Source of the DNA: Daphnia pulex
Lineage: Eukaryota > Arthropoda > Branchiopoda > Diplostraca > Daphniidae
Direction of reading: 5' to 3'
Length of the DNA: 64,000 nucleotides
Assembly (NCBI RefSeq): GCF_021134715.1
Contig: NC_060023.1
Coordinates: forward strand, 12,090,001-12,154,000
A model generated the notes under the pieces. That model searched no databases and was not told the DNA's origin. It saw only the letters and a list, made by a program, of their open reading frames with translations. Shown one piece after another: positions 27,701 to 44,466 of this stretch. The first letter of the stretch is position 1. Each line of letters starts with the position of its first letter. The translations under genes and the position numbers were made by a program.

Positions 27701-30700
27701 TCTCTCAGTTCATCTTGGTCATCTCACCGATACGGTTGTCTCTTTCATTAGATGGTAATTACGACGGACAGAGAACAATTGCTAATTTAGTAATCAACAT
27801 TCAAGATCTTAACGATGATCCCCCTGCTTTCTCGCCGGTTAGTTTTGGTCCCAATTTCATTTGCTGATTTATTGACACTTTTTTCTGTTTAGCCTGGCAC
27901 GGTCACGTTCAGCGTGACAGAAAATGTCGACACTGCGTTTGAATTGACTACAGTTACGGCTTCTGATAAGGACGACAACCCTAATTTGATATTCTCCATC
28001 AACTGGGACAATTCGAAATTCTTCAAAAATCGTGCACTGATCAGTAATCCCGATCCAGAATGGAAGAAATCGTTTGTGCTGGTGTTGAAGAGTCGAGCTT
28101 GGACCAAAGAGTTTTCAAGAATCGTTACTTCAGTGACTGCCAGTCTCCAAGTTGGCGATTCATCTCTATCACCGGGCAACTGCAACGATTGCAAGAATAC
28201 GCCACTCGACCGTGAGAAATTCGACTCTGTAGATCTGTGCCTCACGATCACGGACAGCAAAACGGCCATCAACCGCAACAAAGACGAGCGTAAGTGTAAA
28301 TCGACTTATACATTGTGAAATTCACTTAATCATATTGAATATTTTGACAGTTTATGTTGTGGTGAATATTGAAGACGTGAACGATAACGATCCCGTCTTT
28401 GATGTGTTGGACAAAGAGTTTTCCATCGTGGAAGGAAATGCCACGGTCATTGGAACAGTTTTCGGATCTGTCCGGGCTACAGACGTCGACGTTAACAATA
28501 CCATCACTTATTCACTCAGGTATTTAATCATTTAAACTTATCAGCTAAGATGAAATATTGACATTTCTATTATGCAGTTTGTGTGATGACGTGGCCATCG
28601 ATAAAAACGGACAGTTGACCACGACGGGGCTAATCGATCGAGAAACAAATGACGTGATTTTATGCCAAGTGATGGCAACTGACAGTGGAACGCCAGCTCG
28701 GTCGTCTAATTCAAATGTATGTTTACAATTTCCCTTGATCCAGACCCAGAGATAATACAGTTGAATTTCTAGATCAAAATTAACGTCATAGATGTCAATG
28801 ACAACGAGCCAGTGTTGACGGTGACGCCCAGCCAAGTGACGATTCCGGAATGCAGTACTCATTCATCAACCAAAGATGGCACGATTGTTTCCAAGTTGAC
28901 AGCTATCGACGCTGACATAGGTACCATTTTTATTTCAAGTTGAGCAAAGACAAAATTGACGTTTTGATGAATAGGAGCTTACGGGAATGTGAGTTTCCTG
29001 CTGTCACAGCAAAATTCTGAAGGAGTCGACGAGTTTGCCATTGATTTGCACACTGGCGAGATGACGGTGAGGAATTGCGAGTTGCTCGATTTCGATAATA
29101 AGAAAACTAGCTACAGCATCGTGGTTGAAGCCCGTGATAATTACCGCCAAGGAATTACCCGTAAATATTTCAATAACTATTTATTTTGTGAATCTTGTTC
29201 TTATTTTGATTTTAATATCAAGTCGGCAGTTTGTCCACCTTCCAACGAATCAACATCACGTAAGAAGAGTTTCCATAAAACTCCATAACGACATAATTAA
29301 TGGAATTCATTTTTAGGTTGATGGATGTTAACGACAACGCACCGACACTTTCATGTCCAGTCGATTCTAACGGATGTTGTGCGTCACCATTGGAATCGTT
29401 GACTATGGTATGTCAATCATTCATCCAGTTCAATTTGGACTTCCTTCATGTCTTTGTTAAATTGTAGAACGAATTGGTGGCTTCGATTCAAGGATTCGAC
29501 AAAGACAGCGCCGGTCCAAACACACAGTTGACGTTCACGCTGCACGGACAAACTCGAGTGGGTGGTAACCAGCCCGATAAATGCAAGGACCTCTTCCGCT
29601 TGGAAACAGTCGACAATTCCATGGGAAAAGTGTTCCTTAACGTTCCAGAAATGCTCGACTGTACCGGCAGTTATGACATAACCGTACAGGTATCACTTTG
29701 ATTGATTGAAAGTTGACTAAAAGTGTTGCTTAATTGTTTTTCGACATCAGGCTTGCGATCAGGGTGACGACATAGAATTTTCCCAGTGTTCCATGAACAC
29801 GACGTATCGTATCTGCGTCTTGGATGTCAATAACAATTTCCCACAATTCGTGTTTCCCGATAGCAACAACACGGTTTTCGAAGTGCCGGAGAATTCAATC
29901 GTGGGTCTGCCTTTACTATACAACGGAACTAATTCGCAGCTCACGTTTAAAGCCTCCGATAGCGATGAAGGAGATAATGGGAAAGTCGTCTACACCTGGA
30001 GTAGTACGTATATATTTAATTAATTATGAAAAATGGCCTTTTGCTTAATTTTAATTTTCTGTTGTTTAGATGACAGCATCAACGATGTTTTTGGGTTAAA
30101 CAAGGACTCGGGTCAAGTTACTTTAAATAGCGAGTTGAACCGTGACGTTCAAAGTTATTACAACGTAAGTTGGTGTATTTAATTATTAAAAGTATGATTA
30201 AATGAAGTGTTTATTTTGTTTAATAGCTGGTCGTGATAGCTACAGACAAGGGCGTGCCCAGCACTCTTAGCAACCAAATGAATTTGAGAATCAACGTGCG
30301 ATTGAGTAACAAACAAAAGCCTTATTTCCAGTCGAACGCCCAGTCTTTAAGCTTCACGGGTAAAATCGTAGTTTTTTAATAATATTTTCTCAAAATAAAA
30401 TGGTAATGATGTGACATTTTGAATGGACAGAAAACCAGATGGAAAACAAGACGTTTCAAAGCGCAATAGATCAAGATAACATTAATCTTTTCCCTGGGGA
30501 AAGTCCCTATGACGTTTGCTACTATGTCGTGTGTAATTAACCAATTCATAGTTTTATTAATTCGGATATGTTGTAAATCGTTTGTGTAATTTTTCGAACC
30601 CAGGTGGGAATAATGAGTACTTTGATGTTCCCGACAAAACTGTCAACAAACTTCAAACTAAAAAGACGCTGGATCGTGAAAATCCTCCAACCATTCCTTA

Positions 30701-32836: not shown

Positions 32837-34251
32837 ATGGCGAATAAAATTCAAGGTAACTCTCTTCGCAATTCTGTTTGTTTTTACAATTTTAATGGAA
32901 TTTTTTGTTGGCAGATGTTGAAATGTTATCCCGATTGCGCAATCAGCGAATCCGCAAAGCCAACGGACTAGCGACCAACATAACACTGGACGAAACTCTA
33001 CGGCCGCTGTGGAAACTGACCCACTACTCTGGGATTTTGCTGGACTGGTGTTTTCCCATTTCCAAAAACAATCCTCGTCGTATTTGTAAATTCCTGCGGT
33101 ACTTTTCAATCGCTCTTTCGTTCTCTCTGCTCGTAGCCGTCACCTCGTTCCAACTGATGCAGTTGCTTTTGGGAATCGAGAAAGCGCCAAACATTCACGC
33201 CATTATACCCAACATGTTGTGGTTTATTCCGATTGTGTTGGGTATCGTCATCCAGGTGCATTGCCTTCGTTTGCGGAGGAAATTTCTCAACTTTTTCAAA
33301 GATTGGCGGCAATTAGAAATCGAAATCGTCCACCTAAATCCGAATTGCATCATGTGCAAGTCAAAGCAAATGCATTTAATGATGTATGGAATTTACGCTG
33401 TCATAACTCTAGCTTCCGTTATCGCATTGGGAATGGATATTTCTAATAATCCGGAATCATCGTATCTCATCTCCACCTATCCCGCCGTTCGCCAAGTAAT
33501 TCCTTTGATCGTCATTGGCTCAGTTCATTTAACGTCGATTGTGTTGACCTGGATCCTTACGTCACTGGGTGATTTCATTCCTTCGTTCACTTATTATCAC
33601 ACCGCACTCGCCGTTAGCTGTTTAGAAAATGACGTCAGGGCTCTTTTTGATAAGGGAAAAGACGCTGATGATTTGTTTATTCAATCTAGACTTTCCTTAA
33701 TAGCCGGCAAATTAGATCCTTTGAAGAAATCCCTATCGACTGAACTGTCAACTTGGCAACTTGACGTTCCGATTCTTCGCATCTGGACACGTTTCGAAAA
33801 AATTGGTAAAATGGTCAATCGAGCCGATTTTCTTTTCGGTTCCTTCATGGTCTACAGTCAAGCTGGGGCTATATTTTTCATAACGGCGCTTCTTTATTCG
33901 GTACTTTACAATTTGGGTGATGCCTTGAGGATGCGATCCGTTGGCCCAGTTCTCTCCTACATTCTGAATTTGTTAGCTATCCTTTTTCGTTTCTTTTCTA
34001 CTATGCTAATATCTTCGCAGCTCCATCGGTCGGTTAATAAGTTTCGAACGGCTTTGAATGATTTGCTGAGCCAAAATTGGAATCGAATGAACAAAGGAGA
34101 TCGTGACTTGCTTCGATCTTTTCTGTGGAGACTTCAAGCTGATCCGTTGGTTGCCCATCCTCTAGGCGTCTATAAGGTGACACCGTCCGTTTTGCTAAGT
34201 GTTTTCGGCGTTATAATCAGTTACGTCATTGTATTACTTCAGTCGAAATAG
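32837..34251 (+). CDS. Gustatory receptor (7TM chemoreceptor), copy 1
   Basis: A tiny first exon (32837-32855, MANKIQ plus one base) is spliced to one long exon from 32915, giving DVEMLSRLRNQRIRKANG. About 451 residues, with the hydrophobic pattern of a 7TM insect/crustacean chemoreceptor: TM1 at FLRYFSIALSFSLLVAVTSF, further helices through MHLMMYGIYAVITLASVIAL and VYSQAGAIFFITALLYSVL, and the last at LLSVFGVIISYVIVLLQSK. The ending is a weak form of the family TYxxxxxQF motif (S-Y-V-I-V-L-L-Q). These receptors form ligand-gated cation channels in sensory neuron membranes. Its intron pattern and sequence differ from the three downstream copies, so it is a separate lineage. Confidence 0.82.
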
Positions 34252-34566: not shown

Positions 34567-35987
34567 ATGTTGCGACGGTTAGTTGACAAGGTGCTGGACT
34601 CTTTCAAAGACGAGACCATCAACTTTGAAAAATGTTTCCGTCCCGTTTTGATCGCCATAAACATTTGTGGAATTCCATTGGGAATGAAGAACACTGACGA
34701 ACCAACAACTTTACCCGTTTGGATGGTTTACATCTTTGGCTGGATTCTCTACTGCTTAAATGTCGCATCCGGATTGATGTTGATTTCGATAGAGAAAAGA
34801 GAAAAAAGTCCATTCTTTACAAATAATCGCACCACGGCTTGGCAATGGAATTATGGAATAACTACGTACAACAGTGTCTTTTCCTCGATAGCAGCTCACA
34901 CGGTCCTCCTGGCCATTACGACAGTTCGCTGGAAACATCTTGCTCGCATTTTCCATCGCATGGAACGAATTAATCAATTCGAATTGAAAGATTTTGAAGC
35001 TTTTCGCGCCATTTTCCGATCAGGACTCTTTTTCGCCATCATTGTGAGTTTTATAACTTTAAAATGAATTAATTGTTAATTTCTTTTTATGTCTAGAGCT
35101 ATCTGGCAATTGGTTTTCAGTCGATTTCCGCCTTCTTTATGGCCGATGTCGATATGTGGAAAATGGTGATTTACTCGTTTCAACGGGGTTTTATTATCGT
35201 TATTTTGCTGGCCGGCGTATTATTTTTCTGCTTCGGACGGATGGCCTCTACTATGCTTCAGATTCTTGGCCAAGAAATGACGAAATTCATTTCAAGTGAT
35301 GACCAGCAATCTTTTGAAAACATCGATGTTGTCATAGCTAAATGGAATCGCCATTATTTCATGGCCATTGATTTTGTCCATCAGTTTAACCGCTGCTTTG
35401 GTTGTTTGTTACTTGTCCTGATTGCCCCGATTTTCATTCGAGTAATCAGCACTTCATTCTTTCTGATGATTGAATTAAAAGACGGCCAGTGGACGGCGGC
35501 CGTTACTCTGAATTTGATTGTATTGCTCGTTCATTTTGTGGCTTTCATATTTGCGGCAAATATTCCACACCGAATTCGTCAAGAGGTACCACCCTAATTA
35601 TTTTACTACTCAGTTTGCATTAATTTAACTCTTGTGAATAGGCTATTGATTTAACCAAGAAGCTGCGCAGATTTCAACTTAAAGATTTTACCCATCAGAA
35701 TCAGGTATTTTTTTAAATATTATTTTTTTAAACTAATGCATTAGGTTAAAACGGACTTTTCTTGTCAGGTTAATGTGCTCATGATGGAAATATCAAATTC
35801 TTTGCCGAAAATCACTGCAGCTGGTTTCTTCGACATTGATCTCCAGCTTATTCCAACGGTAATCCAGTCATAAAACAGGTATAATGCAGTTAAATTTTAT
35901 TGCTTCTTTACCGTTTTACAGCTTATTGGGACAACACTGACGTATCTCATAATTCTTTTCCAATTTCAAACGTCAGAGAACACTTGA
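34567..35987 (+). CDS. Gustatory receptor, copy 2
   Basis: Five exons: 34567-35043, 35097-35585, 35641-35705, 35769-35859 and about 35922-35987. The start MLRRLVDKVLDSF is the first true ATG; an upstream GTG is not used. The protein is about 397 residues with the family fold: first helix near VWMVYIFGWILYCLNVASG, intracellular loops, FFCFGRMASTMLQILGQEMT, and PHRIRQE before the third exon. The last exon has TTLTYLIILFQFQ, a full TYxxxxxQF signature. It shares exon phases with copies 3 and 4, so these three are tandem duplicates. A sugar-type ligand cannot be judged from sequence. Confidence 0.85.
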
Positions 35988-36399: not shown

Positions 36400-37314
36400 A
36401 TGAGTTTTCAGTGGAGCCTTCAGCCCATGATAAAGTGGATGCACTGCATCGGCGTTTACTTGGAGTCACCTGGAAAAAACAATTCTTCTGGGTTTCGTTT
36501 ATTTGTTACTGCTTATGGTTTCATCCTCTTTTTTGTTAACATCTTAAGTAACGGAATGATGGCTGCCAAGTTCTTACAGGGTTTTGAAAATATCTCCCAT
36601 CAAACAACTTCTTCTGTTCTTTGGAATGCTGTCGTCTCTCAAACGAATTATATCTTGGTGACTATCGGCTGTCAGTTAAGTTTGATTTCTGGCGCTGTCT
36701 CCACATGGCCCGGTATGATTCACATTCTCCGTGAAATGGAAAAAGAACGTTACTTTGCTGTAAAAGATTTCCATCATTTCCGTCGCATTTACCTGTCAGG
36801 ACTCGGTTTTCTTATCGCGGTAACATCAGTTGATTTAATTTTAAGCATATAATGAAATAAAAGTTTAACTAATGATTTCTTGTTAAAGGTTATCCTTGCC
36901 ATCCTTGGAATTGCTGTGACTATTATTATGTCAACGCAAAATCTAACAAAAGTGGACAAACTTTTTCAAATTTGCTTTACATTTCTTTTAATATTCGTGT
37001 TCAGTGGCGGAGCTTTGTTTTCTTGCTTTGGGTGGATGGTGGCCAGTATGCTGACGATCCTAGCTGAACGTGTCGTGGAGCAAAGTAACTCTAATTGCAG
37101 TGATTGGGAAAAGATGTTTGTTAGATGGAGACATCTATACTTGAAGATTTCGCGGCTAGTGGACAAGATGAATGAATGTTATGGTTTTCTTCTTCTGTTT
37201 TTAATTACAAGTAGTTTCGTCGTGACGATTAATTCTTCATTCATAATTTGTAAATTGTTCGAGCGAGCTTTAGCTCGCGATGAGCAATTTGGATTGTTGG
37301 GGGAATGGAGTGAA

Positions 37315-37437
37315 GACATTGACTGTGTGCGACCTCTATATTTCAGCTGCTTCTCAGCAAACAAAAGAACAACAAAAACGGGGGATAGGTGAGAGATGGC
37401 GCTCAGGTGGGCGGACCTTTCCCTTAGACACATCAGA
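37315..37437. repeat. DIRS inverted terminal repeat, low-coordinate copy
   Basis: The 123 bp begin GACATTGACTGTGTGCGACC and end CCTTAGACACATCAGA. It is the exact reverse complement of 39864-39986. It also contains AGATGGCGC. Confidence 0.92.
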
Positions 37438-37718
37438 ATTGGAAGCAAAAACAAACTGTGGATCTGGCTTAACGGAAAATGTGTAAGGTGATCCATGGTT
37501 CAAATGGCCTATTTGTTGTTGATGTTCTGATCGCCTTTATTGGCGGGATTGGGTGAGCCACGGTCGAAATTGGATCTGCGGCTATCATTGTTGTATCTAG
37601 CAAAAAGATAGAAGGAAAGAGGAATTAGTGGGCCGTCAATAATCGGATGCTGCACCTAATTCAAGTTAAATAACATAATGATAACGGGAATGAAGTGGGC
37701 GGGATGGGTGGTTAGAAG

Positions 37719-37830
37719 ACAGTCAATGTCTTCACTCCATTCCCCCAACAATCCAAATTGCTCATCGCGAGCTAAAGCTCGCTCGAACAATTTACAAATT
37801 GTCGGTAAATTCGTTCGACATTGACTGTGT
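37719..37830. repeat. DIRS internal complementary region
   Basis: 37719-37800 is the reverse complement of the left end (37245-37326), and 37798-37830 is the reverse complement of the right end (39973-40005). The two overlap by the trinucleotide at the element junction. It thus records the sequence of the circularised ends. Confidence 0.9.
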
Positions 37831-37989
37831 CTTTAAAGCAAGATATAATCAGATATAATAAGATATAAGATGAGACCCCCTGATGGTCGACAGTTACCAA
37901 CGCCTGATTGAAAATTGGAGCTCGTGGGAGCCCTGCTGGACTGTGTAACATGGATGCGCCACCAAATCGGCATTTCGTCTAAAAGGGCG

Positions 37990-38253
37990 TCAATACTCTT
38001 TCATACGAATAGTTGTCGAAGGGTTCCTTCCCACCGTGCTGCAGCTCTTGCTGGAATGAAAATTAACAAGGAAAGCTAATACCTCCTTGACGCCAGACAA
38101 CAGAGAGTTGTGGTTCCGTTGCTTACACCAACTGCTCCCAGCGACCTCAGCGGACTGGTATGCAGGGTGCGTATTCGATCGAATTGCTCCCAGTATGAGC
38201 TCGATAATTTCCTTCGGAAAGGTTCGTTCTTCCAGACAACTCCGGAGAACCAC
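37990..38253 (-). pseudogene. Remnant of DIRS tyrosine recombinase, N-terminal part
   Basis: Frame with ELILGAIRSNTHPAYQSAE and LLSGVKEVLAFLVNFHSS, resembling the SAM-like N-terminal domain of DIRS/phage-type tyrosine recombinases. It ends before any catalytic R-H-R-Y residues, so it is not functional. Confidence 0.5.
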
Positions 38254-38414
38254 CGAGCGATAAAACAGATGGATTCGTTCCTGTCAATGGATGACCCTCC
38301 CCCAACGGGGAGATCAGCCTACTTGGATGGGAAGAGAAGGAGCGGAATTTCCGTTGCTAGCTCTATCAGGGACGGGAGGTCAGTGGTGTTGCTAGGGCAA
38401 TCTCGGCTAGTTTC

Positions 38415-38750
38415 CTAGTCCTTATTCGTTTCATACTGCCCCCCTCCCTTCTTAAAAAGGATGCATCCGACGCCCTGGACAAATCCGTCGTCGGGAAAAA
38501 TGAGCGGACGGCCAGATGTAAAATCTGCCTTTGAAACCAACCAAGAAGGACTTCTACGAGCCTCTTGTAAACGTGCCGAAAGCGTAAATTGCTCTCTTGA
38601 CCTGATCAGATGACCATCCGGTTTGGAATCTAAGGGGATCCGAAGAGCACGGAAGTGTGCTGGGGCAATGCTATACCCGTGCGCCGAGATTAAAATCTCA
38701 TCCCAATAAAGTTCGAGGCGAAGGTCGTTCTTCCGCAGGAAGGTTACCAC
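38415..38750 (-). pseudogene. Remnant of DIRS reverse transcriptase/RNase H
   Basis: Open frame on the element's coding strand containing LRLELYWDEILISAHGYSIA, the region around the second RT catalytic block, where an aspartate pair is expected; here W-D-E is read. The frame loses its match soon after. It is a short fragment of a longer ORF. Confidence 0.5.
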
Positions 38751-39042
38751 TCCCCTTACTAGTCTGGTGAACGCCCATCACATTGAGTTTAAAACGAAGG
38801 AGGGGGGGCACGAATTCGAAGAAAAACGCCCCCATTTAAACTGAAGGAATTTCAAAAGGCCTTCAAAAATAGGAAAAAATTGAGACCGACAAGTATGAGT
38901 CAATCAAGTTCAGCTTGGTGAGCCAACCCGCTCCCAAATAATTGGACGGGATCACAAATAGAATTTAGTTGTAGATATGGGGCCACCGTTGATAAATTCC
39001 ACCGATCGAAAGCCGGTCTTGACAATTTAACATAAAAACGCG

Positions 39043-39834
39043 CTATGCGTCCAAGAGAAAAAACCCATAAAAGGAAAGGAGAATAGATTGGACATACCGA
39101 GATCCTTTAAAATTGGAATAGCGACCGCCTGAAGATGAAGGGGGGTGGCTGAAATCGCGATTCGATTGGCGTTGATCATGACCACCTTTAGATCCGGGCG
39201 CGCGAGGGGCTCCCGCGTTTTCGAGAGCGTTCAGAGTTTTCACTTGCTCGACCAGGGCCTGGGTGAACTTCGGACCGAAGAGGTGTTCTCCACCCGTTGG
39301 CAGGACAGCTTTGTCGTCTAGCAGTCCAATATTCTGCGGGTAGATTTGGGCCAGAATGTTGCGGCGTCGCGCGTTCGTGATGTCGTGGTACACCACCGCC
39401 CAGAGCTTCAGAGCTGTTTTGACCGCCTTGGCGTCGGCTCGGGATTTCTTCTTTTTCTTGAGCCGACTTGCTAGAAACATGATGGGCTTGACTAAGTCAA
39501 GGATCTTGAAGGTTTGGTTTCTGTAGATTTTCTCGATTGGGTCGATGTTGACCTTGGCTGCCGAAGATGACTTAACTGCCTTCAGCCGGATGTAGAATGC
39601 ATCATCTAGATTGGGGTTGATCAGCAGGTCGGCGTTCTTCTTTAGCTTGGGTCTAAAGGCCTCTCTAGCACTTTTCGCTCGAGTGTCATCTAAACCCGAT
39701 ACGACCCAGTCGGCCAAACTAGCTGACTTTTCACTTGAGAGACGAAATTTCTTTACGCCTCCTCTTCTTGATGAGTCGGAGCCTGAACTACTAGAATTTG
39801 AGCTAGAATCGCTTGACTGTTCGGGATCCGACAT
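39043..39834 (-). CDS. DIRS gag-like protein
   Basis: Open frame of 263 codons at the 5' side of the element. The N-terminus is serine-rich and acidic (MSDPEQSSDSSSNSSSSG), then comes a basic, mainly helical core (SRLKKKKKSRADAKAVKTAL) and a Gly/Arg/Ser-rich C-terminal part, PGSKGGHDQRQSNRDFSHPP. This matches the usual first ORF of arthropod DIRS elements; no catalytic motif is present. It is intact, but its partners are not. Confidence 0.7.
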   Translation of the reverse strand: MSDPEQSSDSSSNSSSSGSDSSRRGGVKKFRLSSEKSASLADWVVSGLDDTRAKSAREAFRPKLKKNADLLINPNLDDAFYIRLKAVKSSSAAKVNIDPIEKIYRNQTFKILDLVKPIMFLASRLKKKKKSRADAKAVKTALKLWAVVYHDITNARRRNILAQIYPQNIGLLDDKAVLPTGGEHLFGPKFTQALVEQVKTLNALENAGAPRAPGSKGGHDQRQSNRDFSHPPSSSGGRYSNFKGSRYVQSILLSFYGFFLLDA

Positions 39835-39863
39835 GATGTTTGCACAACGAGAGCGAAAAGAGA

Positions 39864-39986
39864 TCTGATGTGTCTAAGGGAAAGGTCCGCCCACCTGAGC
39901 GCCATCTCTCACCTATCCCCCGTTTTTGTTGTTCTTTTGTTTGCTGAGAAGCAGCTGAAATATAGAGGTCGCACACAGTCAATGTC
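39864..39986. repeat. DIRS inverted terminal repeat, high-coordinate copy
   Basis: Exact reverse complement of 37315-37437 over 123 bp. The 19 bp from 39987 to 40005 form the short outer extension. Confidence 0.92.
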
Positions 39987-40526
39987 GAACGAATTTACCG
40001 ACAATCATGCGTGACGTCAACGATGAGGGCATCGACTACAATTGCGTCATCCATTCATTCTTTTTGATTATCCAATTTTCACACTTTGCTGTTTTGGCTT
40101 ACGTTCCCCATCGCATCCGAGAATCAGTAAGTTTTTACATTAGTAACTAACTAACTTGGTTCTAACAGTTTTTAATTACGTTAATCAAGGCAATCTATTT
40201 GAGTAAACAATTACGAGAACTTAAAATCGGTAATGAGGCGAGGCAAAACAAGGTAATCTTAACAGAATTTGATTTATGTAACCTTTATTTCTTACTAATT
40301 AATATCGTAGGTGAATTTCTTTATTTTGGACGTGTTGAATTCGCTACCTCAAATCACGGCACTCGGCTTATTTGATGTTAATCTTCGCCTGGCCCCAACA
40401 GTAAGTCATTAAACGTGAAATTTGAATATGTTATGTAACAGCCCGATATTTGTTTTTCACTAGATAGTTGGAACAACCTTGACGTATTTGGTCATTTTGT
40501 GCCAACTGCATTATTCCGCGAAATAA

Positions 40527-42927: not shown

Positions 42928-44466
42928 ATGGTCAAAAGCAGTAAAATAAAAGTTGTGGCCGTTTCACCTTCTAACATTGTGACAAGCGACTACCTAACTA
43001 ATGATTCGACAGTATTAAATTTTGATTGGTCTTTGAAGCCGATAACGACTTGGCTTCAAATTTTTGGCATTCAGCCACCGCTAATCTCCTCTGTTAACCG
43101 AAACAGTTGTTGCAATCGGTTTGTGGTACTCATTCCGATTGCAGTAGTTTTCTATTTTCTGAATGTTGGCTGCAATGGGTTTGCTCTAGGACAAATTAAA
43201 TGGAATGCCACCAAGAAGAACTATAGTAGCAGTTCTACCAGGAACTGGAATTCAATCATTAACGAAATGAATTTTAGTTTACTGACTTTGGCGACACATT
43301 CCGCTCTTTTATTCTTCAGCTATTTCATGGCTTGGAAGGGTCTGACGGAAGTGCTCCGGCGATTGGAACAATGCCACCAATTTGACAGTGGCCATTATAA
43401 AAAATTCCGGAGAATCTGTACAGTTGGGTCTTGCTTCATGTTGATCGTAATCATTTATCTTTCGATTTCCTAAATTATTTCTTAAAATTATTTGGACTTG
43501 TATTTTATAGGAAATTGCCATTGAATTATTTGAGACACTTTATGGCCTTTTATCGTTCGACGCAAAGATATTACCAACCTTCCGTGTTATTTTATCCGGA
43601 TTGAGGATGGTGTCACTCGTGTTCCCATTTCTTGGCACTATCCTGTTCTGTTGTCTGGGATGGATGGCTTCGATCATGTTACGAATCATGGCAGAGGAAA
43701 TTGAATCGTCAATCATCAATCGCCCTGTTAATAACTCTAGATTGAATAATTGGGTCTTGATGTCTTTGGATGGATGGAGGCGCCGCTATTTCCTGATTGT
43801 CGAATTTGTGCAGCAAATCAACTGCCATTTCGGTTTTATTCTTTTGGTCGTCACGGCATCAGAATTCGTTCGGATAACCAACACATCTTTCCAATTACTC
43901 GTTGAATTTCTAAATAACAGTTGGACATTGTCTAGCATGTCCACGATCTTGATTGCCTTTGACTTTATTAAAGAGACGGCCTGCTTCTGTATTTTGCTCT
44001 ACGTACCTACTAAAATCCATGGAGAGGTAAATTGATGAAACTTATTGTTATGGTGAAAAACTTGAAAAGGTTATCAGTGGTTTTCCATATTAAGGCCAGT
44101 GACTTGGTCAAACGGTTGCGGATGATGGACTTTGACGATTACGGTCCCCGAACCCAGGTATTAGTGATAATTGGCATATTACACCATGTCAATTCGTATT
44201 AACGGGAATTTATTCACAGATGAAATTTCTAGTTGAAGAGATGACTCATTCGCTTCCGAGTATCGCACCGATGGGGTTAGTTCAAATAAATGTCCAACTC
44301 ATTCCAACGGTATTGAACCAAATTAATCTCTCAATCTCATCGATAAAAAATCGCTAATTTTAATTTTTTCGATGTAAATTCTTTCATTCTTTTGTATTAG
44401 CTGATTGGAACGACGTTGACATATTTGATTATCCTTTGCCAGTTTCACTCGTCAGAGACTGTCTAA
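42928..44466 (+). CDS. Gustatory receptor, copy 4
   Basis: Exons 42928-43446, 43511-44026, 44095-44157, 44220-44309 and 44401-44466, with the same phases as copies 2 and 3. The start MVKSSKIKVVAVSPSNIVTS gives a longer N-terminal tail than the paralogues. The fold is the same: NRFVVLIPIAVVFYFLN helix, FPFLGTILFCCLGWMASIML, YVPTKIHGE at the exon 2 end, and a final exon with TTLTYLIILCQFH, a TYxxxxxQF signature. Intact frame; ligand unknown. Confidence 0.87.

Follow-up and report, generated by a model that had tools for sequence, protein, structure and literature searches.

How can a retrotransposon of 2.76 kb lie within a receptor exon and yet leave every host codon complete once it is taken out? 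This question is raised by a 64,000-nt stretch of the Daphnia pulex genome (the window, C7:12090001-12154000; unless a contig is named, coordinates are positions in this window), in which exon 2 of a gene assigned to the gustatory receptors (Gr) is interrupted. An earlier sequence-only reading of the window had claimed that a DIRS element cuts the exon exactly in frame. The analysis presented here makes it highly likely that a gag-only, non-autonomous DIRS1-like element has recently integrated into exon 2 of a Daphnia Gr gene.

The claimed cut at AAT by an insert of about 2.76 kb was borne out to the base. The net insert comprises 2758 bp (37248-40005, coding strand minus) and is flanked by AAT on both sides, at 37245-37247 (boundary TTCAT-AAT-TTGTAAATT) and at 40003-40005 (boundary TTTACCGAC-AAT-CATGCG), with no longer target duplication. 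When the exon pieces 36889-37247 and 40006-40126 are joined and one AAT is counted once, exon 2 is open in one of three frames and its codons run ATA-ATC across the join, as had been proposed; the insertion point follows coding base 779 and falls in codon 260. The statement that the protein aligns to its tandem neighbours (34567-35987 and 42928-44466) without a gap holds at the join, the nearest gap (three residues, shared with one neighbour) being 10 residues downstream. By eye, no gap was seen at the join relative to the closest paralogue found in the genome either (C7:12038536-12039816; SYNIMQNV versus SFIIMRDV). A search of the assembly (133,188,837 bases on 13 contigs, representing one haplotype) yielded no empty or closely related copy of the joined site, only its two halves at the insert. 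DIRS1-like elements are described as recombining at a 3-bp sequence without target duplication (PMC3266345, excerpt). Because no host base is lost in DIRS-type recombination at a 3-bp core, a cut that is exactly in frame is a normal product of this integration mode and not a coincidence.

The interrupted gene is read on the plus strand as five exons: exon 1 (36400-36819), with a start codon common to the closest paralogue (MSFQxSLQPM); exon 2 in a 5' piece (36889-37247) that ends in the left AAT core and a 3' piece (40006-40126) that continues in the same frame after joining; exon 3 (40190-40252), with 63 nt equal in length to exon 3 of both neighbours; exon 4 (40311-40400); and exon 5 (40464-40526), carrying the motif of the seventh transmembrane segment (TM7), TYLVILCQL, and the stop. 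An exon 3 start at 40169 was rejected in favour of 40190, as the longer form gave a 7-residue gap relative to the neighbours. The resulting coding sequence of 1116 nt encodes 371 aa plus stop, and all four introns are GT-AG and in phase 0. Pfam 7tm_7 was matched over residues 30-368 (E 3.9e-25), and by the 5' piece of exon 2 alone (36889-37248) with E 5.7e-07. The last intron lies six codons ahead of the TYhhhhhQF motif, as in arthropod Gr genes, and the final F of the motif is L in this receptor. Judged by domain, intron phases and TM7 motif, the gene is an arthropod Gr; it shares 44-53% identity, depending on the matched stretch, with the closest paralogue. For DpuGr1-29, 47-54 and 30-41, a phase-0 intron in the middle of the gene, three close to the C-terminus, the TM7 motif and a tandem arrangement have been described (PMC2680840, excerpt). 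The receptor is alike in intron pattern, motif and arrangement, while differing in that the present allele is interrupted.

Continued into the insert, translation yields 47 foreign residues after codon 260 and ends at a stop codon at 37390-37392. Since the last 30% of the receptor, including the TM7 motif, is lost after this early stop, the interrupted allele is very probably null. The receptor had been called near-intact, with other disabling changes as the point to look for. This description stands, as no second disabling change was found in the five exons, four splice pairs, start or stop of the model.

As for the insert itself, its designation as a DIRS element is correct in the type of its ends and core and has to be revised in its content. 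The 123-nt repeats at 37315-37437 and 39864-39986 (minus strand; the conserved parts of the right and left inverted terminal repeat (ITR), respectively, in gag orientation) are inverted and 100% identical. They are not the tips, since the element extends 70 bp further left, where the outer part of the right terminus (37245-37314, minus) is complementary to an internal region, and 19 bp further right, where comparison of the termini places the outer divergent end of the left terminus (39987-40005, minus). The internal complementary region (ICR; 37719-37830, minus) pairs with both element ends: in window orientation, 37719-37800 (82 nt) pairs inverted with the left end and 37798-37830 (33 nt) with the right end, and the two stretches overlap on the 3-bp circular junction ATT at 37798-37800. 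The one-sided ITR extension, the overlapping ICRs and the 3-bp core without target duplication are the structural characters of a DIRS1-like element, while the reverse transcriptase (RT)/ribonuclease H (RNase H) and tyrosine recombinase (YR) of an autonomous one are not encoded. The only long open frame on the minus strand of the element (39834 to 39043, that is 39043-39834) encodes a gag of 263 aa. Its first approximately 250 codons are shared with a 4.48-kb relative, L032, where they correspond to the N-terminal portion of a gag-RT frame of 943 aa. No Pfam match was obtained for the 263-aa frame, and a structure predicted from the single sequence reached a mean predicted local distance difference test score of 40.8 and was not used. 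An interpretation as a complete DIRS element was rejected, RT/RNase H and recombinase being only decayed relics, present as fragments of 74-88% identity with deletions between them. The RT/RNase H relic (38426-38939, minus) consists of two pieces, 74% and 77% identical to L032, and the pol/recombinase overlap relic (38033-38377, minus) is 84% identical. Frame 38415-38777, the one RT-relic frame tested, gave no Pfam match, and frame 37990-38283 no Pfam recombinase match. The sequence thus assigns the insert to a non-autonomous gag-only derivative of DIRS1-like type.

The insert belongs to a family with at least 28 full-length copies, including the window copy, spread over 10 of 13 contigs, and partial copies also occur; the family statistics given here refer to the 28 full-length copies among the matches listed. 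Identity to the window copy is about 99-100% for 26 of the others and 94% for one. Letter-identical interiors at different sites form groups of 10, 9, 3, 2 and 2 copies, with L013 and L028 standing alone. The window copy belongs to the 3-copy group and equals the two other members over 2755 bp. Four of the five groups are 15-25 substitutions apart from one another, and a single substitution distinguishes the fifth (L014/L015) from the 9-copy group. L013 is separated by 11-24 substitutions from the four groups compared, and L028 by 102-107. A gag frame of 263-268 codons is kept in 27 of the 28 copies (L028 stops at 78). In addition, at least three autonomous-type relatives were found. The 943-aa gag-RT frame is kept in all three, with both frames open in one relative and the recombinase frame broken in the other two. 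In L032, Pfam recognised RVT_1 in the 943-aa frame (E 3.4e-23) and Phage_integrase in a second frame of 502 aa (E 2.5e-11), and its ends are 94% identical to those of the window element.

Is the surviving gag frame a remnant or a kept gene? Between the window element and L032, gag carries 10/10/43 substitutions at codon positions 1/2/3 (250 sites each; 2 indels), the RT/RNase H relic 41/38/51 (about 205 sites per position; 11 indels), the pol/YR overlap 19/12/11 (about 100 sites per position) and a short YR piece 4/3/4 (about 28 sites per position). The third-position excess is pronounced in gag (p 2e-8; dN/dS 0.17) and not in the RT relic (p 0.09), and gag and RT relic differ strongly at positions 1+2 (p 9e-14). 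Because of this bias in gag and not in the RT relic, protein constraint appears to have been absent from the RT stretch, and present in gag, over most of the period since the element and L032 separated. The same bias was seen relative to L028, which shares the deletion structure (5/3/14; third position 14 of 22, p 0.003), and to L031 (6/11/30; third position 30 of 47, p 2e-5), a partial match whose gag-only status is taken from one shared deletion. Selection thus seems to have maintained gag beyond the decay of the other element genes.

An alternative explanation is that gag merely looks constrained since recombination or template switching recently brought it in from an autonomous element that is intact, the lineage being ordinary decaying debris. 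Retroelement replication can mix templates, and the regions of the element do diverge at unequal rates. However, among the matches listed no intact donor is closer than about 89% in gag, the autonomous-type relatives, at least three, all have a gag dS of about 0.25 from the window element, and the third-position bias persists relative to L028 and L031. A capture is therefore considered unlikely. We lean, with little more than even confidence, towards a DIRS lineage with gag as its sole gene that has persisted after its RT and recombinase were lost, in which selection on the non-autonomous element itself kept gag functional and a burst driven by the enzymes of a helper is now hitting coding exons.

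For the cycle of such an element, we infer a helper, packaging and a DNA circle. The RNA of the gag-only element would be copied by the RT of an intact relative, the helper. Gag made from the element's own RNA may favour packaging of that same RNA, and gag would probably be held by selection through its benefit to the RNA from which it is translated. The element ends and the internal region would then template a DNA circle with the junction ...CCGAC-AAT-TTGTAA..., which the tyrosine recombinase of the helper would join to an AAT in the target; this would leave AAT on both sides and destroy no host base. A bolder extension is that, as core recombination is reversible in principle, the same recombinase could remove the element precisely, so that some cells or clones would regain the receptor.

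The youth of the insertion had been deduced from the identity of its 123-bp terminal repeats. Both the identity and the youth hold, but the repeats are a weak clock. Zero changes in them (246 bases) would allow about 2.7-5.3 million generations, and dating by the repeats was rejected in favour of whole-copy identity, as the repeats are made alike at replication. This follows from changes that occur in both repeats of an element: eleven differences between the family and the 4.48-kb relatives, counted in the alignment, appear twice in each relative, once per repeat, and a single new change in L013 likewise affects both repeats. In a comparison of the window copy (39868), L013, L014, L015, L030 and L032-L034, changes between positions 49 and 137 of the terminal repeat (gag orientation) were found in both repeats of an element, and changes at 138 (L014, L015, also L030) or 142 (L032-L034) in one repeat only; one site (100) in the decayed L028 is an exception. 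This pattern suggests a start of the element RNA close to position 138, with all sequence outside this start being rebuilt from the other repeat.

That the burst is young is shown instead by identical whole copies at different sites. With mutation rates of 2.30-4.53e-9 (PMC12926508, excerpt) and an assumed star-like history, zero changes bound the age of the 10-copy group at about 24,000-47,000 generations and that of the 3-copy group, to which the window copy belongs, at about 80,000-158,000 generations. Fixation by drift takes about 4Ne generations, Ne being the effective population size. Published estimates of Ne, as given in the excerpts consulted, are about 640,000 and about 43,000-153,000; the bound for the 3-copy group is below 4Ne, and fixation by drift alone should not be expected, the margin being thin where the lowest Ne meets the oldest bound. 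As the insertion is too young for such fixation to be expected, an empty, functional receptor allele probably still exists in other clones. DIRS elements of D. pulex have been reported to be polymorphic in the sites that they occupy and to have been lost from sites that were presumably heterozygous (PMC2996953, excerpt), and mutation-accumulation lines of D. magna showed two DIRS losses and zero gains (PMC8594854, excerpt).

Alternatively, the insertion could be fixed and the receptor an established pseudogene that has not yet suffered further damage. In its favour, no empty copy was found in the assembly, but the assembly represents one haplotype only. The lack of any other lesion in exons, splice pairs, start and stop speaks against fixation, as does the age bound, which is below 4Ne for the published Ne values with the thin margin mentioned; we regard it as improbable. 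The receptor would still be functional if the element were spliced out as an intron, adding a small insertion to the protein. Thirteen in-frame, stop-free GT-AG pairs do exist in the element, the best of which (donor AG/GTGAGA at 37389 to the acceptor before 39979, CACACAG) would add 56 codons. With generic splice-site weights, however, its acceptor scores below all four real receptor acceptors, and among 300 window segments drawn at random with equal length, 82 contained a pair at least as good. On this control the intron was rejected, and splicing is very unlikely to rescue the receptor. Slightly less credible still is an assembly artefact, in which the element was misplaced or one copy repeated by the assembler: the data are a finished consensus only, but each of the 28 listed copies has its own flanks and follows the same core rule, the search of the assembly found the joined receptor site only as two halves that meet the insert exactly, four groups are mutually 15-25 substitutions apart, and L014 and L015 are one from the 9-copy group.

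Several points weigh against the reading of a young, helper-driven burst of an element with a selected gag. Among the six distinct young sequences (L028 left out), the depletion of variable sites in the gag frame is not significant over all 43 sites (7 of 43, p 0.09). Without the repeats and the internal complementary region it becomes 7 of 40 (p 0.03), and the 250-codon gag domain has 5 variable sites in 750 versus 33 in 1522 outside the gag frame (p 0.008), with regions and cut-offs chosen after seeing the data. Between L001 and L028, the pol/YR relic and gag diverged equally (2.9% each), the 3' part diverged less than gag (2.6%), and the RT relic alone diverged more (7.1%). Since non-gag parts diverged equally little, the argument for constraint rests on the codon-position bias and not on rate alone. 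As the ends of the window element are only 94% like those of L032, the actual helper may be another, unseen element. The identity between copies could be inflated if polishing homogenised young repeats, and segregation, the null effect and trans-mobilisation are all deduced from one finished assembly consensus.

The preference of the family for its target was analysed from the flanks of the 28 copies. The right core is AAT in all 28 and the left core in 26; L011 and L012 combine a left ATT with a right AAT. Core identity is thus preferred and not strict. Around the core, A at -2 (21 of 28 sites, p 1e-6), C/T at -1 (26 of 28, p 2e-6) and T at +1 (17 of 28, p 9e-4) are enriched, and T at +4 is rare (1 of 28, p 5e-4); these four positions were selected from 20 after looking at the data. 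The circle junction predicted from the element ends, GAC-AAT-TTG, has A, C and T at -2, -1 and +1, and this resemblance would fit recombination between like sequences.

When the flanks were joined by script into 28 empty sites, the longest frames measured between 17 and 499 aa. For positions chosen at random in these flanks, the 90th percentile was 197 aa and the 95th 342 aa, so that the length of a joined frame by itself proves little. Pfam was run on 6 of the other 27 joined frames. The join of L004 (C12:543699-549464) lies inside an AKAP7/2'-5' RNA ligase-like domain, that of L012 lies 20 residues after a Sterile domain, and that of L002 lies far upstream of MIF4G, at residue 20. The joined frames of L015, L019 and L020 gave no Pfam match, and in L020 the join is where the frame starts. 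Firm exon hits of the family are the window copy in the receptor and L004, while L012, L015, L002 and L026 are possible further ones. A family with such exon hits has probably seen little selection so far.

Insertions of DIRS elements are nothing new, and D. pulex is a well-known host of such elements (PMC2996953, PMC3266345, excerpts). DpuDIRS3 of D. pulex has the triplets ATT/ATT/AAT, a DIRS1-like layout and 5.2 kb (PMC3266345, excerpt). The present element shares with it the ITRs with one-sided extension, the ICR overlap on the 3-bp junction, the ATT/ATT ends with an AAT junction in coding orientation, and the lack of a target duplication; unlike DpuDIRS3, it spans 2.76 kb, its RT/RNase H and recombinase are non-coding and only a 263-codon gag is open. 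Dpul_D5 and Dpul_D16 occupy different sites among natural isolates, with losses of Dpul_D5 at presumably heterozygous sites and putative somatic gains of both (PMC2996953, excerpt). They belong to the same superfamily and species and, unlike the present element, had been selected because their frames are intact and their copies few. Plant TR-GAGs are non-autonomous elements with a single GAG frame, one of which transposed in an Arabidopsis ddm1 mutant (PMC8704663, excerpt). The present element is likewise non-autonomous with a single open GAG frame, but it has inverted repeats and DIRS ends instead of direct long terminal repeats (LTRs) and presumably depends on a tyrosine recombinase instead of, presumably, an integrase. 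By analogy, it would work like a TR-GAG but is not one. No report of a gag-only DIRS element with a selected gag was found in the open-licence literature searched, which does not prove absence, and the excerpt of PMC8498967 makes no mention of non-autonomous DIRS elements.

For the receptor, the insertion provides a clean, very recent loss-of-function candidate in Daphnia, a model for genome evolution. As the empty allele should differ by little beyond the insert, the effect of a single Gr on fitness or behaviour could be tested directly. A literature search on chemoreceptor loss or copy-number variation in Daphnia returned matches by title on an aphid genome and Drosophila. The element family is the more interesting object than the single receptor hit. 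If true, a gag-only DIRS element with a selected gag would extend a cis-acting gag function, already suggested by TR-GAGs among LTR elements, to recombinase-type retrotransposons, and surveys requiring RT plus recombinase would overlook such elements.

The receptor is embedded in a tandem array. Both neighbours, upstream at 34567-35987 (394 aa) and downstream at 42928-44466 (417 aa), are on the plus strand and have five exons and an open frame. Adjoining this five-exon array, an uninterrupted chemoreceptor-like frame at 32896-34251 (451 aa from stop to stop) matches Pfam 7tm_7 over residues 35-450 (E 8.8e-21) and resembles the intron-poor Gr42-46 type (PMC2680840, excerpt). Further upstream of the receptors, a frame of 100 aa at 29721-30023 appears cadherin-like by eye.

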